Assembly (NCBI RefSeq): GCF_021183825.1
Contig: NZ_CP089211.1
Coordinates: 3,633,501-3,697,500, forward strand
DNA from: Sinomicrobium kalidii
GTDB taxonomy: Bacteria; Bacteroidota; Bacteroidia; Flavobacteriales; Flavobacteriaceae
Direction of reading: 5' to 3'
Length of the DNA stretch: 64,000 nucleotides
A program made the translations under genes and the position numbers. Below are positions 1-5,352 of this stretch, piece by piece. Under the pieces are notes generated by a model that saw only the letters and a program-made list of their open reading frames with translations, searched no databases and was not told the DNA's origin. Numbering within the stretch: the stretch's first letter is position 1; each line of letters starts with the position of its first letter.

Positions 1-1317
1 ACGGCTTTTGGTTTTCTTTTTGTGAAAATCCTTTGCCAGTTTTATGCGGTATTTTACAAAACCTTTTGTGGAGTCGTATTCCTTGATATTTTTTTGTTCA
101 CTGCCCGGAAGATAGATGTTCTTAAAGGTGAAAATGGCCTTTTTGTCGGTAAAGGTAGTGTCGATACAGCTATATGTAATATTCTCTTCTTTCGGGCAAA
201 CGGGACATTCGGGATAGAGGTCTTCGATCTCCAGGGTGTTTTTGTCGAACATATCGGGAATATCGGTTTCCAGGCGTATGGTATTGGCAGGACCTTCGCC
301 GTTGTTCTGAAACCTGATCTTAAAGCGGAAGGTCTTGAACCGTACCAGCCGATAGTTCATCACCGTGGCGTTGGATGACATTTTATTGGGATCGTGTGAA
401 GTGACGATCTCCATTTCCATTTCCCTGACCTTGTGGTTGTCGTAGTTTTCATCCGGGACATAGATGCTTCTTACGGAGACAATAGCGCTGGTATCCTTGA
501 GCATTTCCGGCGTAGTGCGCAGGGTGAAGAAAACGTTGCGTTCCTCTCCGGGCGACATGTGGTCGAACTCAAGAATGCTCCGGTCCTTGTAACGGGCTTT
601 GGCCTCTTCCAGGGTAAGAGGCAGGTTTACCCTTTCGGTGGAGTCCTGCCATTTTTGGGTGAGGAATAAGGTGCCTTTTTCCGCAGAGGCCAGTAAGGCA
701 GTTTCCCGGGAGATGTCCCCGGTGTATGCAAAACCGTCTTCACGGACGGACTTCTCTCCGTGATAGGTTCGCGTATCGGTGAGCTCAAAGTTTTTGTCCT
801 TGTATTGCTGTTCGTTGTAAAAGAGGTAGATCTTTCCGCCGGTTACGTATGCTTTGGGATTTTTGTAGCTCAGGACAACTGCGATATCTTCTTCAGGAAC
901 AGGTTCCCGGTTGCGCTGCAGGCTCAGGTCGTCTTCAAGTGAAGCCCGGGCTTCATAAGTTTCCGTTACTTTGTCCACCTTTACCTTTTGCGGACGGGTG
1001 GCGGGTGTTTTGCCGTTGTCGTAGTGATTGGTGGCCCATAGGTTCACTTCGTATTCGCCTTCTTTTTTATACACGTGCCGGGGGTGTTCTTTCCTGCTGA
1101 AATTGCCATCCCCGAATTCCCAGAAATAGGAGTAATAGGCTTTCGGTGCTCCCGCGATCTGTATGAGCGGGGGAGGTTGGGGGATGAGTTCCACAGCGTT
1201 CCCGGATATGTTGTAATCAAAAGTAGCCGTACGTTGTACGCTGTCGGCAGATTGTTCTTCCTGTGCAAAGATGCAGCAGGAGGTGAGTATAAAAAGTAAG
1301 GAACCCGGAATTCGCAT
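1..1317 (-). CDS. PKD-domain secreted protein, partial (3' end beyond left edge)
   Basis: An open frame of 439 codons runs off the left edge with no stop inside the window. It starts at the ATG at 1317. The first 19 residues (MRIPGSLLFILTSCCIFAQ) form a signal peptide; LTSC could also be read as a lipobox, but cleavage after FAQ is the more usual Bacteroidota pattern. Residues about 45-85 carry a PKD fold (WEFGDG, then HVYKKEGEYEVNLWATN), typical of surface or secreted proteins. The later part contains an NNGEGPANTI stretch like the DUF11/conserved-repeat modules of large flavobacterial surface proteins. A sigma-type promoter candidate lies about 250 bp upstream. Substrate and exact role cannot be told; the missing C-terminus may hold a sorting domain. 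Confidence 0.8.
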   Translation of the reverse strand, partial: MRIPGSLLFILTSCCIFAQEEQSADSVQRTATFDYNISGNAVELIPQPPPLIQIAGAPKAYYSYFWEFGDGNFSRKEHPRHVYKKEGEYEVNLWATNHYDNGKTPATRPQKVKVDKVTETYEARASLEDDLSLQRNREPVPEEDIAVVLSYKNPKAYVTGGKIYLFYNEQQYKDKNFELTDTRTYHGEKSVREDGFAYTGDISRETALLASAEKGTLFLTQKWQDSTERVNLPLTLEEAKARYKDRSILEFDHMSPGEERNVFFTLRTTPEMLKDTSAIVSVRSIYVPDENYDNHKVREMEMEIVTSHDPNKMSSNATVMNYRLVRFKTFRFKIRFQNNGEGPANTIRLETDIPDMFDKNTLEIEDLYPECPVCPKEENITYSCIDTTFTDKKAIFTFKNIYLPGSEQKNIKEYDSTKGFVKYRIKLAKDFHKKKTKSR

Positions 1318-1651
1318 GTGGTTGGTTGTTTAATTAAAATAAAGGTACGAAAAGTGATGACATTTCAGTATCGCCGCTTTTCGGGATACTTCCTGTTCCG
1401 GAAGATCGTTGCTAATGGAAATGAGCCCTTTCTGCATTGGTTGCTTCCGTGTGTTCCCGGTAGGACTTAACGAATAGTTATTACTAAACATGTTCATGGT
1501 ACTTTTCTGGTTTTGTATGGTTTTTATAAATACGGGGTTTGCCATGTATTGGAATTGTAACTTTATATCAACAGGGAGTTTTGATTGTTACCCCTTTTTT
1601 TATTTTTTTCTGGAAGTTGAAAAAAGCAGGTGTTATTCAGGAAGTTGAAGT
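1318..1651. other. Intergenic region with an ECF-type promoter candidate
   Basis: This 334-bp gap lies between the lipoprotein stop at 1652 and the PKD gene start at 1317. It contains one copy of the bipartite motif (1564-1594, minus strand). A 71-codon minus-strand open frame (1330-1545) starts 19 bp after that motif. A direct repeat GGAAGTTGAA occurs twice near 1612-1647. I see no RNA gene or terminator. Confidence 0.5.
1564..1594 (-). promoter_or_regulatory. Bipartite promoter-like element, copy 1
   Basis: On the minus strand GGGGTAACAA (1594-1585) is followed after exactly 15 bp by GATATA (1569-1564). The same layout occurs at 3848-3878 and 3955-3985. It resembles an ECF sigma -35/-10 pair (GTAAC-type -35). 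The next annotated minus-strand gene is the PKD protein at 1317. Confidence 0.5.
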
Positions 1652-2623
1652 CTATGGCAGTTCCCCGATCACGGATAGAAGTTCTTCCAGGGTAGCAGTC
1701 GTCGTTTCGCTGTAAGCAATGGTATAGACCTGGTTTTTTCCTGTGGTGACATTTTTTATGGCGTAGCGCCACAGCCCGCTATCTGCAGAGACAAATATGA
1801 GGTGTACTTCCCGGTCACGGGGAATTTGCCTGAACGGGTCTGAAAACACATTTGTTTCCGCATCAAAGGCCGGAAGTTGAGCCAATCCGTGTTTTTCACC
1901 GGAATAGGCGATATATACCGATGCGTTTTCCGCGTTATAGCCTTCGGTTACCAATACCCGTAAACCCGTTTTGGGTTCTGCAAAGTCACGGGGCCGGGCA
2001 ATACCAACCCAGCCGGGACCACCGGAAAAAAAGGTGACGTAACGGTCGTTTTCCACAAAGAGTTCACCCTGGGGGTCGGGTTGCCAGATAAAAATTCCGT
2101 TGTCGTCTTCCATGCCGTTCCACAGGATCATGTCCTGATCCGGGCCTCCTGTGAGGGAAACGGGGACCTGTAATTGTGTACCGCAGTTGTTGGTGATTTG
2201 TTGTTCGTTTTGTATAATGTTTATGTAAAAAATCCCGCCCGATACCAGAAATGCCCTTTCTTCTGTTGCGGTCAGTCCTGTTGTGGGCTTGCCGGAAGCA
2301 AGCATATCACCATGGTTGTACAGTTCCGTGAATTGCAGGGTGACGTTTCCGGATACCGGTTCTCCTGCTCCAACAGAGAGGCAGCCCGGGGCGATCTGCA
2401 GCACAGTTCCGTTGTCTGATGTAAATGTTATACCTTCTTCTGCATTAAACTGTATTTCCTGCCGGGAAGTATTTCGGGCATTTTCCTGTATATCCGTGAA
2501 CTCCAGGGGCGCGGGCGCTTCAAAGCTTGTTTCTTCTGCCGGGTCGTCACAGCAGGTATCCCGGTCACAGCCGGAGAGCATGAGCAGGGAGAGGAAAAGG
2601 AACGGAAAGGAGGCAGGTTTCAT
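1652..2623 (-). CDS. Lipoprotein, tandem paralogue of the next one
   Basis: A 323-residue protein. I start it at 2623 because the residues from there (MKPASFPFLFLSLLMLSGC) form a lipoprotein signal peptide with lipobox LSGC; the open frame continues upstream without any sensible N-terminus. The mature part resembles the product of 2820-3812 along its whole length. Shared landmarks are FNAEEGITFTSDNG, a GGPDQDMILWNG segment, DDNG followed by a Trp, and a closing ATxEELLSVI-like helix. This points to a tandem duplication. The domain is not one I can name. It is probably anchored to the outer membrane. A TACATTTG -7 box lies 26 bp upstream. Confidence 0.85.
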   Translation of the reverse strand: MKPASFPFLFLSLLMLSGCDRDTCCDDPAEETSFEAPAPLEFTDIQENARNTSRQEIQFNAEEGITFTSDNGTVLQIAPGCLSVGAGEPVSGNVTLQFTELYNHGDMLASGKPTTGLTATEERAFLVSGGIFYINIIQNEQQITNNCGTQLQVPVSLTGGPDQDMILWNGMEDDNGIFIWQPDPQGELFVENDRYVTFFSGGPGWVGIARPRDFAEPKTGLRVLVTEGYNAENASVYIAYSGEKHGLAQLPAFDAETNVFSDPFRQIPRDREVHLIFVSADSGLWRYAIKNVTTGKNQVYTIAYSETTTATLEELLSVIGELP

Positions 2624-2648
2624 AACAGTACGGGTTTGGCCGGCTTCC

Positions 2649-2656
2649 CAAATGTA
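2649..2656 (-). promoter_or_regulatory. -7 promoter element for the 1652-2623 lipoprotein
   Basis: TACATTTG on the minus strand matches the Bacteroidota -7 consensus TAnnTTTG. It lies 26 bp before the ATG. No TTG is found at the usual 17-23 bp further upstream. Confidence 0.4.
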
Positions 2657-2747
2657 ACAAAAAAGTTTTATCCCGAATGAGACAAAAGGGATAAGCGGGC
2701 AGTGAAAAATAGAGGTGACAGGGATATGATACGCCGTTATAAAAAAG

Positions 2748-2785
2748 AAAACCCCGCAAGCTGTGATCGAACGGAGCGGGGTTTT
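2748..2785 (-). terminator. Rho-independent terminator after the 2820-3812 lipoprotein
   Basis: The arms AAAACCCCGC and GCGGGGTTTT pair over 10 bp around an 18-nt loop. On the minus strand the stem is followed by CTTTTTTATAAC. It sits 34 bp after the stop codon. Confidence 0.85.
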
Positions 2786-2819
2786 CTGCACTAACAAACC
2801 TAAAGAGCCGGATATATTT

Positions 2820-3812
2820 TTACGGCAACATGTTTATGGCGTTTACAAGATCTTCTTCGCTTCCCGTGGTCGTGTCTTCGAGTGCAAAGATGTAAATGTC
2901 GTTCTCGGCTACGGTTACCCCCTGGATGGCATAGCGCCACTGGTCGTCTTCTTCGGTGACGAAGATGACGTGCATTTCCAGTCCTACCGGAATTTGCCCG
3001 TAGTGTTCGGAAAAGGTACCGGTGTTGGCATCAAAGGTGTCCAGCTGGGCCAGGGCATTTTCCTCACCGTCGTAGGAAAGATACACGGCACAATTTTCAT
3101 TGGTGAAACCTTCCGGTACCTGCACCTGCAAGGTGGTTTTCGGCCTCGGGTCGTTGTAAAAGCGATCTACGTTGGTCCAGCCGAATTCCCCAAAGAATGC
3201 GAAATACTGGTCACCTTCTGCAAATACACCCTCTTCCTGTCCGATGGCACCTTCCTCCCTTTCATCCCATACCAGGTTGCCGTCATCGTCTATGGTCCCT
3301 GCCCAAAGCGTCATATCCTGGTCGGGCCCTCCGGTCAGGTCTGCCGGGATCATCATCTGCATGTTGCAACCGGACTCCAGCGCTTCACCGTTTTGGGTGA
3401 CATTTACATAGAATTCTCCCCCGGATATCAGAAGCGCTTTGTCACCTTCCGTAGTGAGCCCCACAGTAGGTCTGTTGGCAGGAAGCATATTTCCCTTTTC
3501 AAAAAGTTCGACATACTCCAGGTCCACTTCTCCGGTTACCGGATCGCCGTTCAGGGATAGACATTCTCCGGAAATGTTCAGGACTACCCCGTTATCCGAA
3601 GTAAAACTGATGCCGTCCTCCGCATTGAACTGGGCGGTTTGTACCCGGTCTTCCAGAGCAGCATCTCTCAGTGCATTAAACGCTTCGGCTGTGGGGGCTT
3701 CGAACGGAGGTTCTTCTATAGGTACGATCCCTTCGTCATCGCTCAGGGAACAGGCAGTGAACAGAAGTGTTGTCAAAACTAAGATCGCCAATGGTGTTTT
3801 TACATTTTTCAT
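2820..3812 (-). CDS. Lipoprotein, tandem paralogue
   Basis: A 330-residue lipoprotein: the signal peptide ends in the lipobox FTAC (MKNVKTPLAILVLTTLLFTAC), followed by an acidic linker (SLSDDEG). The mature part parallels the product of 1652-2623 (FNAEDGISFTSDNG, GGPDQDMTLWAG, VIFVTEEDDQWRYAI against VIFVSADSGLWRYAI), so the two are tandem duplicates. The function is unknown. A bipartite promoter-like element ends 36 bp before the start codon and a second copy lies 107 bp further out, so this is the best candidate target of the divergent ECF sigma factor at 4028. A strong terminator follows. Confidence 0.85.
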   Translation of the reverse strand: MKNVKTPLAILVLTTLLFTACSLSDDEGIVPIEEPPFEAPTAEAFNALRDAALEDRVQTAQFNAEDGISFTSDNGVVLNISGECLSLNGDPVTGEVDLEYVELFEKGNMLPANRPTVGLTTEGDKALLISGGEFYVNVTQNGEALESGCNMQMMIPADLTGGPDQDMTLWAGTIDDDGNLVWDEREEGAIGQEEGVFAEGDQYFAFFGEFGWTNVDRFYNDPRPKTTLQVQVPEGFTNENCAVYLSYDGEENALAQLDTFDANTGTFSEHYGQIPVGLEMHVIFVTEEDDQWRYAIQGVTVAENDIYIFALEDTTTGSEEDLVNAINMLP

Positions 3813-3847
3813 GATTTCTACTTTTTAATTAATATCTCGTTTTATCC

Positions 3848-3878
3848 TATATCCGCCCATCCTGTTATTTGTTACCCC
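3848..3878 (-). promoter_or_regulatory. Bipartite promoter-like element, copy 2
   Basis: On the minus strand GGGGTAACAA (3878-3869), N15, GATATA (3853-3848). It lies 36 bp upstream of the lipoprotein start at 3812, an ordinary promoter distance. Confidence 0.6.
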
Positions 3879-3954
3879 CTTGCCCGGATTTATTTTCTTT
3901 CCTTTGTGTATCTCCGGCCTTTTGTGCGGGGAGCATGGATGGCAGTTATATCCC

Positions 3955-3985
3955 TATATCAAATAGCGGCTTATTTTGTTACCCC
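3955..3985 (-). promoter_or_regulatory. Bipartite promoter-like element, copy 3
   Basis: On the minus strand GGGGTAACAA (3985-3976), N15, GATATA (3960-3955). It lies in the divergent gap between the lipoprotein (start 3812) and the sigma factor gene (start 4028). Confidence 0.55.
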
Positions 3986-4027
3986 TCTGCAAAAACTTTT
4001 TTATTTTAGTCCGGTAATACTGTTTGC

Positions 4028-4612
4028 ATGGCAGAAAAGAAGGTACATGAGGACCAGAAATATATAGATGGCCTGCTGAAGAACAATTCGATAGTCATAC
4101 GGTCCATATACGAAAGGTTTGCACCGAAAGTGGTACGTTATATCCGAAACAATAGCGGGGATACGGGCGATGCGGAAGATATTATCCAGGAAGTCCTCGT
4201 TATTATATATAAACAGGCCAGGGACAAGGGACTGCAACTTAGCTGTCCTTTTGACGCTTACTTTTTTCTGCTCTGTAAAAGGCAATGGTTCAACGAACTG
4301 AAAAAATCTTCCCGGAAAGAGGTAACAAGAGAAGGTGAAAACGTATATAAGGACGAAGGGGCGGAAGCACTGGTCATGGAGACGGATATTTTCAATGAAA
4401 AAGAGAAACTTTTTACCGCGATGTTCGACCGGCTGGGAAAAGCCTGCAAGGAACTGCTGCAAACGTCATTCCGGTTAAAATCCATGGAAGAGGTTGCCGA
4501 AAAGCTGAACATATCCTATGCCTATGCACGCAAGAAGAAATCACTGTGTATCGGAAAGCTTACGGAAATGATACGCCAATCGCCCGGATATAAAAAAATA
4601 AAATCCTCCTGA
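4028..4612 (+). CDS. ECF-type RNA polymerase sigma factor
   Basis: A 194-residue sigma-70 family protein. Region 2 covers about residues 20-90: the YERFAPKVVRYIRNN helix, then GDAEDIIQEVLVIIYKQA, the core-binding DAEDIxQE motif. Region 4 covers about 125-180 and ends in a helix-turn-helix (SMEEVAEKLNISYAYARKKK). It lacks a zinc-binding anti-sigma domain and other extra domains. The TGA stop overlaps the ATG of the next gene, so it is translated with a membrane TPR protein that may act as its partner. It faces a lipoprotein gene whose upstream region holds two copies of a bipartite promoter-like motif. I found no TAnnTTTG box directly upstream of this gene. Confidence 0.9.
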   Translation: MAEKKVHEDQKYIDGLLKNNSIVIRSIYERFAPKVVRYIRNNSGDTGDAEDIIQEVLVIIYKQARDKGLQLSCPFDAYFFLLCKRQWFNELKKSSRKEVTREGENVYKDEGAEALVMETDIFNEKEKLFTAMFDRLGKACKELLQTSFRLKSMEEVAEKLNISYAYARKKKSLCIGKLTEMIRQSPGYKKIKSS

Positions 4613-5352
4613 TGATGGAAGAGCGTGATTATATATTGTTTGAAGCCTATCTTTCGGGGGTAATTTCCCCGGAGGAAAAAGAGAAGCTTAAAATGAGGCT
4701 GGAAAAGGACGGGGAACTGAAAGCGTCCTTCGAGCTCTACAAAGAGACTTCCGCCCACCTGGAAAACAGGTTCGGAAAGGAAAAAGATACTATAGCTTTC
4801 CGGGAAAAGGTGTCCGGTATTTCAGAAGTGTATTTTCGTGATGCGCCGGGCAGGAAAAAAGGGTTCCGCAAATTGCGCCCGTGGCAGATGGTCGCGGCGG
4901 CCGGTGTGCTGGTGATCCTCGGTATTTTCTTATCGCGCAGGATGAGTGTTCCCTCTTATGACGACTATGCCGGTTACCCGGAAATTAGCCTGGCCGTACG
5001 CGGGGAAAGCAATACCGTTTTACTGCAGGCAGAGACCGCCTTTAACAACGGGGATTACGGGGAAGCGGCCACACTGCTCGGAGAAATAGTGAAAGGAGGC
5101 AATACCAATCCGGAAATACAACTGTATCGCGCTATTTCACTGGTAGAGCTCAACCGGTTCGGGGAGGCAGATGCCGTATTGGACAGACTTATGGATTCCG
5201 GTTCCGTAATCCGGTATGATGCCATGTGGTATGCGGCCCTGAGTAAACTGAAACAAAAGGACTTTTCGGCCAGTGCGGATATCCTGGAAAGAATACCCGA
5301 AAGTGCAGATCGGTACAAAAGGGCGCAAAAATTGCTTAAAAGACTGGAATAA
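4612..5352 (+). CDS. Membrane-anchored tetratricopeptide protein, partner of the sigma factor
   Basis: A 246-residue protein whose ATG shares its A with the TGA of the sigma gene. Residues 1-90 are charged and presumably cytoplasmic, residues about 91-108 form one transmembrane helix (WQMVAAAGVLVILGIFL), and residues about 135-240 hold TPR-like helices (ETAFNNGDYGEAATLLGEIV, then further A/L-rich pairs). This layout, a cytoplasmic N-terminus, one helix and an outer domain, is that of an anti-sigma-like protein, and such sigma plus TPR pairs are frequent in Bacteroidota. No zinc-binding anti-sigma motif is visible, so the anti-sigma role is inferred from position and topology. Confidence 0.8.
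   Translation: MMEERDYILFEAYLSGVISPEEKEKLKMRLEKDGELKASFELYKETSAHLENRFGKEKDTIAFREKVSGISEVYFRDAPGRKKGFRKLRPWQMVAAAGVLVILGIFLSRRMSVPSYDDYAGYPEISLAVRGESNTVLLQAETAFNNGDYGEAATLLGEIVKGGNTNPEIQLYRAISLVELNRFGEADAVLDRLMDSGSVIRYDAMWYAALSKLKQKDFSASADILERIPESADRYKRAQKLLKRLE

Follow-up and report, generated by a model that had tools for sequence, protein, structure and literature searches.

A probable ECF sigma factor promoter, repeated inside the sigma gene itself, in Sinomicrobium kalidii and its relatives

The window analyzed here, a 64,000-nucleotide stretch of the Sinomicrobium kalidii genome (contig NZ_CP089211.1, positions 3,633,501 to 3,697,500), carries the gene of an extracytoplasmic function (ECF) sigma factor at 4028..4612 on the plus strand and copies of a two-box motif, GGGTAACAA-N15-GATATA, close to it. 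Very likely, this motif is the -35/-10 promoter that the 4028 sigma factor recognizes, and its output comprises a lipoprotein, a PKD protein and its TPR-CHAT neighbor, and a putative anti-sigma factor, the last of which would provide negative feedback. An earlier note on this DNA had read the motif as the promoter of this sigma factor, with a regulon of lipoprotein and PKD genes; it overlooked the intragenic copy, the anti-sigma-like gene and the TPR-CHAT gene next to the PKD gene. That reading is supported by exact copies restricted to the locus, co-occurrence with the sigma gene among family genomes, the same downstream genes in relatives, a start-site-like signature at the right distance, and altered boxes in two genomes where region 4 is missing from the sigma gene. 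Recognition by the 4028 sigma factor itself is deduced from this linkage.

Scanning of the window reveals exact copies of GGGGTAACAA-N15-GATATA at 3985-3955 (copy A), 3878-3848 (copy B) and 1594-1564 (copy C), all on the minus strand. Across the whole genome (5,364,211 bases) the exact motif occurs at these three places only, each within 2.5 kb of the sigma gene. The three copies, their exact 15-bp spacing and their GATATA boxes are as the earlier note had described them, and the genome-wide check it called for finds exact copies confined to the sigma locus rather than scattered. Copies A and B precede one and the same lipoprotein gene (ATG at 3812), with predicted starts at 3949 and 3842, 137 and 30 nt from the ATG, and position weight matrix (PWM) scores of 40.1 and 21.7. 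Copy C (PWM 39.1) has a predicted start at 1558, 241 nt 5' of the PKD gene (ATG at 1317). The distances given earlier, 36 bp from a copy to the lipoprotein ATG and 247 bp from a copy to the PKD ATG, are both correct. With up to three mismatches allowed, the window holds four matches against 0.74 expected from shuffles. Genome-wide, the same tolerance yields 24 matches in forward and 39 in reverse orientation, where the reversed pattern yields 26 and 24; most loose matches are therefore background. The window shuffles and the whole-genome search lead us to reject chance as the origin of the three copies. A one-mismatch copy at genome position 1727764 scored below 16 and was dropped.

To the window we added the best 80 of 169 sigma relatives in named genome contigs, retrieved with six seed peptides lying outside the codons discussed below for the intragenic copy, giving 81 loci, several of them shortened by contig ends or by the 6-kb flank. 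The PWM, trained on motif copies of the same loci it searched, gives 259 matches at a score of 14 or more in real sequence and none in reversed sequence. A divergent copy lies within 700 bp of the sigma gene in 76 of the 78 loci with enough upstream DNA, and all 199 non-intragenic matches scoring at least 18 are located upstream of it on the opposite strand. The 15-bp spacing is near-universal, with 14 bp in at least two copies of relatives (L033 and L103). Among 122 strict copies, an A-rich stretch lies 5' of the -35 box, and GATATA is followed by T at -1 in 102 and a purine at +1 in all 122 (A in 63, G in 59), with two mostly-A positions one base further on (114/122 and 104/122). The boxes and the conserved T/purine signature together predict a GGG at -35 and a start six bases after GATATA. 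A divergent copy also stands beside three of four distant sigma genes from other families (35-44% identity).

Co-occurrence was measured with the pattern RGGTAACAA-N15-KATMTA, tallied by hand, in 199 family genomes searched for the sigma protein. The 27 genomes that possess it (E 1.5e-60 or better) contain 91 matches, at least one in 26 of them, with 72 lying within 3.3 kb of the sigma gene (intragenic copies included) and 19 elsewhere; the remaining 172 contain 14, and across the whole set of 199 the reversed pattern finds 50. In a phylum sample of 395 genomes, 20 of the 22 with the sigma gene (E 1e-25) contain 56 matches, 36 near the gene by hand count and 20 distant, whereas the other 373 contain 19 against 39 for the reversed control. 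Genomes without the sigma gene show no excess of the motif.

Matches that are distant or in sigma-less genomes were inspected in two samples. Twelve of the 33 from the family, picked by eye, all score at least 16, and 11 precede a secreted- or lipidated-looking product by eye, the exception (G094) preceding a sugar-epimerase-like gene. Twelve of the 39 from the phylum were inspected, two of them, from G127, also belonging to the family set; 11 score at least 14 and precede a secreted- or lipoprotein-looking product, and one (L151) falls below 14. Six products of distant matches carry Pfam domains, comprising DUF4082 lipoproteins, curlin repeats, OmpA/CarboxypepD proteins and a protein with a type IX secretion system (T9SS) tail. 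Four genomes of the phylum set (G560, G200, G533 and G457) contain a nearly identical pattern-fitting stretch, GGTAACAA-CCCGACCG-CA-AATATCTA, which probably belongs to a conserved gene unrelated to the sigma system. At three loci (L153, L155 and L161), a distant copy lies 5' of a secreted-looking protein of ~520 residues; the spacer letters of L153 and L155 are also alike, including a second GTAAC, with L161 less alike. Since the genomes behind L155 and L161 are the two with a broken sigma gene, another factor may read that distant site.

The sigma protein, 194 residues long, matches Sigma70_r2 (33 bits, cut-off 24) and the TIGR02937 sigma70-ECF model (55.8 bits over residues 25-181, cut-off 42.9), with no separate Pfam match for region 4. 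It has the composition of an ECF (group 4) factor, with regions 2 and 4 only in about 200 residues, and the promoters assigned to it carry paired -35/-10 boxes at fixed spacing, as expected for this class. Many ECF factors use a -10 box of the CGT/GTC type; the -10 of the regulon proposed here is GATATA, not of that type. The best named relative is that of S. pectinilyticum (81%). No match scoring at least 18 lies on the sigma strand within 500 bp upstream of the gene in any of the 81 loci (in three, the available sequence is shorter than 500 bp). The earlier statement that no copy precedes the sigma gene on its own strand holds for this upstream region; on that strand, a copy does lie within the gene (see below). 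A near-match to the housekeeping -7 box TAnnTTTG, TATTTTAG, at 4002..4009 on the plus strand, 26 bp 5' of the ATG, probably belongs to the promoter of the sigma gene. Of 79 loci, 75 contain the relaxed form TAnnTTnG, a pattern chosen after inspecting the sequences, in the 60 bp ahead of the gene, against a shuffle mean of 13.5. It usually sits 22-28 bp 5' of the ATG and fits with housekeeping transcription of the gene. The exact TAnnTTTG was tried and rejected, being not enriched (6/79 against 6.6 expected within 60 bp; 15/79 against 14.1 within 130 bp). This box and the lack of an own-promoter copy upstream suggest that the sigma factor is probably made constitutively.

The gene at 4612..5352 on the plus strand, whose start overlaps the sigma stop, encodes a membrane TPR protein that we propose is the anti-sigma factor of the adjacent sigma factor. 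Its predicted structure is composed of four N-terminal helices, a hydrophobic helix (residues ~90-112) and TPR repeats, with a mean predicted local distance difference test (pLDDT) score of 79, local values of 50-87 by block for the helices within residues 4-75 and about 52-54 for helix 90-112. The most hydrophobic 17-residue segment begins at residues 80-109 in 80 of 80 loci. Of 27 TPR proteins, 24 match one NCBIfam anti-sigma model (best E 5.6e-9) and 15 another, at E values up to 0.1. In 78 of 80 loci, the start of the TPR gene is no more than 10 bp away from the sigma stop, too close for a promoter to fit in between.

A natural loss is seen in two same-family genomes of one genus (g127), G502 and G411, in which a sigma gene without region 4 is fused in frame to a TPR gene without its first 50 residues, and hence without the N-terminal helices (L149:2919-3890 and L150:2505-3476). 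No lipoprotein, PKD or CHAT match is found in the 7 kb around each fusion, and the intragenic box, invariant elsewhere, takes the forms GATGTAACAA and GAGGTGACAA. The best full-motif remnant in these 7 kb is a single site with three mismatches at L149, with none within three mismatches at L150. The two genomes are related, so the loss may be a single event.

The intragenic copy, GAGGTAACAA-N15-TATATA at 4319..4349 on the plus strand, lies in the linker that joins region 2 to region 4 and faces the anti-sigma-like gene; it differs from the full pattern at two positions and has a predicted start at 4355, the first base of codon 110. Among 102 distinct sigma genes from 107 loci, some genomes being present twice, its GGTAACA and AT-T letters are invariant: codons 98-100 read nnG GTA ACA and codon 106 reads nnA in all 102, and codon 107 is TCT in 90, TAT in 10 and TTT in 2. 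On a tree of 81 sigma genes built without codons 94-112, codons 98, 99, 100, 106 and 107 show zero third-base changes against a median of 18 over 193 columns, the other zero-change columns being start, Met and Trp codons only. The start signature is also retained, with G at +1 in 81 of 81 and T at -1 in 72 of 81. In the four distant sigma genes, the intragenic -35 box persists in all four.

Three other explanations were weighed. The intragenic element might be real and serve another use, as a holoenzyme pause or decoy site or as the source of a transcript for a region-4 fragment of the sigma factor, which we regard as rather unlikely. In its favor, other systems show pausing at -10-like elements as well as truncated products, and the intragenic -10 (TATCTA) departs from the extragenic consensus; against this, the full -35 box, the spacing, the -10 box and the start signature are all kept, with an adjacent gene nearly always within 10 bp. 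A fragment, moreover, would find no conserved start codon just past the predicted start, codon 115 being ATG in 21 of 103 rows of an alignment in which ~11 rows are misoriented, and the conserved Met codons lying further on, at 132 and 153.

That the boxes form the binding site of another transcription factor rather than a sigma promoter is improbable. Operators too may consist of paired conserved boxes close to a gene, but the motif is directional, ends in a start-site-like signature, tracks the presence of the sigma gene and is altered where that gene is broken. The predicted start-to-ATG distance is short (median 46 nt over 137 genes, and at most 28 nt in a quarter of them), so that a separate core promoter could hardly fit in between. 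It is barely tenable that requirements of the protein or of translation hold the GTA-ACA and TCT codons constant. V99 and T100 are indeed unchanging residues, but the letters that stay fixed are those of the extragenic promoter, at the same spacing, and protein constraint cannot hold the third bases of codons 98 and 106, where the amino acid changes 8 and 12 times on the tree.

Several observations weigh against a promoter read by the 4028 sigma factor and feeding back on it. Within the family, one sigma-positive genome (G156) has no pattern match and two others (G074 and G096) have none near the gene; among the 20 phylum positives, G411 and G502 are counted, yet each has a broken sigma gene and one distant match. 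Two sigma relatives at 30% identity (L147 and L148) have neither motif nor cluster, and a start-site map of Flavobacterium psychrophilum, a species not checked for the sigma gene, contains no such motif in the sections covered (PMC9723704). The window's TPR protein matches the anti-sigma model weakly, at 19.5 bits against a cut-off of 100. For the intragenic copy, the -10 box is mostly TATCTA-like, not GATATA, and 43 of 81 copies reach a score of 18, which together suggest that this promoter may be weak. Its -10 does not fit at L033 and, in the distant sigma genes, is perfect in one and mismatched in three of four; the anti-sigma transcript would begin with a leader of 257 nt.

The cluster around the sigma gene is largely shared: at E 1e-4, the TPR gene is found in 80 of the 81 loci, the lipoprotein in 77, the PKD protein in 74 and the TPR-CHAT protein in 68, with a small secreted protein in 34 and a 195-residue lipoprotein in five. 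Copies A and B face a 330-residue lipoprotein (2820..3812, minus strand) that has a predicted β-rich fold, no Pfam match and no significant solved relative (best E 0.23). A second, related lipoprotein (1652..2623, minus strand) has no motif copy directly upstream. The stretch separating these two genes contains an inverted repeat rich in GC, AAAACCCCGC...GCGGGGTTTT (2748-2785), which resembles a terminator. Copy C faces a 655-residue PKD/DUF7619/DUF7849 protein (1..1317, minus strand) that runs past the window edge and is complete in L132:4851-6818. The end of this gene is overlapped by the start of a gene for an 879-residue TPR-CHAT protein (L132:2224-4863), left of the window. The latter combines TPR matches with a CHAT domain (E 8e-47) and a His-Cys dyad, as expected of a protease of this type, and by eye possesses a signal-peptide-like N terminus and a hydrophobic stretch near the C terminus. 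The dyad, H708 and C747 in the window genome, which we take to be the catalytic pair as in CHAT/caspase families, is kept in relatives with covering aligned DNA (H in 27/27, C in 18/18). Elsewhere, L119:810-1310 shows by eye overlapping frames on both strands with short tandem repeats (CLRRKGLCSPRK / RTQPLTRRTQ) near a transporter-like gene.

In the mechanism we propose, the sigma factor, made from its housekeeping-like promoter, would be held by the adjacent membrane TPR protein. Once released, it would transcribe the divergent surface lipoprotein gene or genes together with the PKD/DUF7619/DUF7849 gene and the TPR-CHAT gene that follows. From the promoter within the sigma coding sequence it would also transcribe the anti-sigma gene, so that the positive output would have negative feedback built in.

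RshA, the anti-sigma factor in the SigH/RshA system of Corynebacterium glutamicum, is of the cytosolic redox type. In the published sections drawn on here, the SigH/RshA operon is transcribed from sigma-independent promoters and a SigH-controlled promoter inside the sigma gene drives the anti-sigma gene only, as supported by Northern blot, reporter and primer extension data (PMC3489674). The arrangement here is alike, with a sigma-type promoter inside the sigma gene facing the next, putatively anti-sigma, gene, and the feedback loop itself has its published precedent there; unlike here, the -35 is of the GGAA type in another phylum, and the evidence here is codon-level conservation (PMC3489674). 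ECF control of surface or secretion genes in Bacteroidota is also described, in the parts consulted, for PorXY-SigP of Porphyromonas gingivalis (PMC4800418) and SM6 of F. psychrophilum (PMC9723704), the latter differing in its CGT -10 box and T9SS targets from the GATATA box and local lipoprotein/PKD/CHAT cluster seen here.

In CASP/Craspase, as far as the sections used describe it, the TPR-CHAT protease Csx29 cleaves the sigma inhibitor Csx30, and the CASP-sigma is ECF-like (PMC10028731). The present locus likewise unites a TPR-CHAT protein, an ECF sigma factor and a proposed inhibitor, with sigma motifs within it; unlike the CRISPR-guided CASP, its TPR-CHAT protein has the signal-peptide-like and hydrophobic segments noted by eye, and cleavage is conjecture (PMC10028731). 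CASP uses the CRISPR effector Cas7-11. As a tentative and rather doubtful extension, the cluster might be a complete CRISPR-free counterpart, in which a periplasmic, membrane-anchored, caspase-like TPR-CHAT protease, sharing an operon with the PKD/DUF7849 protein of the outer membrane, would cut the periplasmic TPR arm of the anti-sigma factor and free the sigma factor, raising surface proteins and protease, while the intragenic promoter would replenish the anti-sigma factor and so reset the switch.

A whole-word literature search for the motif spellings gave a sole match, on a bean microRNA, and the covered parts of PMC7366714 contain no relevant motif. In the literature searched, as far as its accessible sections extend, we found no published account of the cluster, the promoter code or the codon fixation; these three features, the last being a fixation of third codon positions imposed by the element, look new.

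The analysis provides a testable promoter code, a regulon and a feedback design for an apparently uncharacterized sigma factor of Flavobacteriaceae and other families of the class. Third codon positions can become frozen throughout a family when a coding sequence also houses a regulatory element; here, the sigma gene would encode the factor and at the same time contain, in its DNA, the signal that this factor reads. If the TPR-CHAT protein is indeed the activating protease, the CRISPR CASP pathway would be linked to ordinary envelope signaling.

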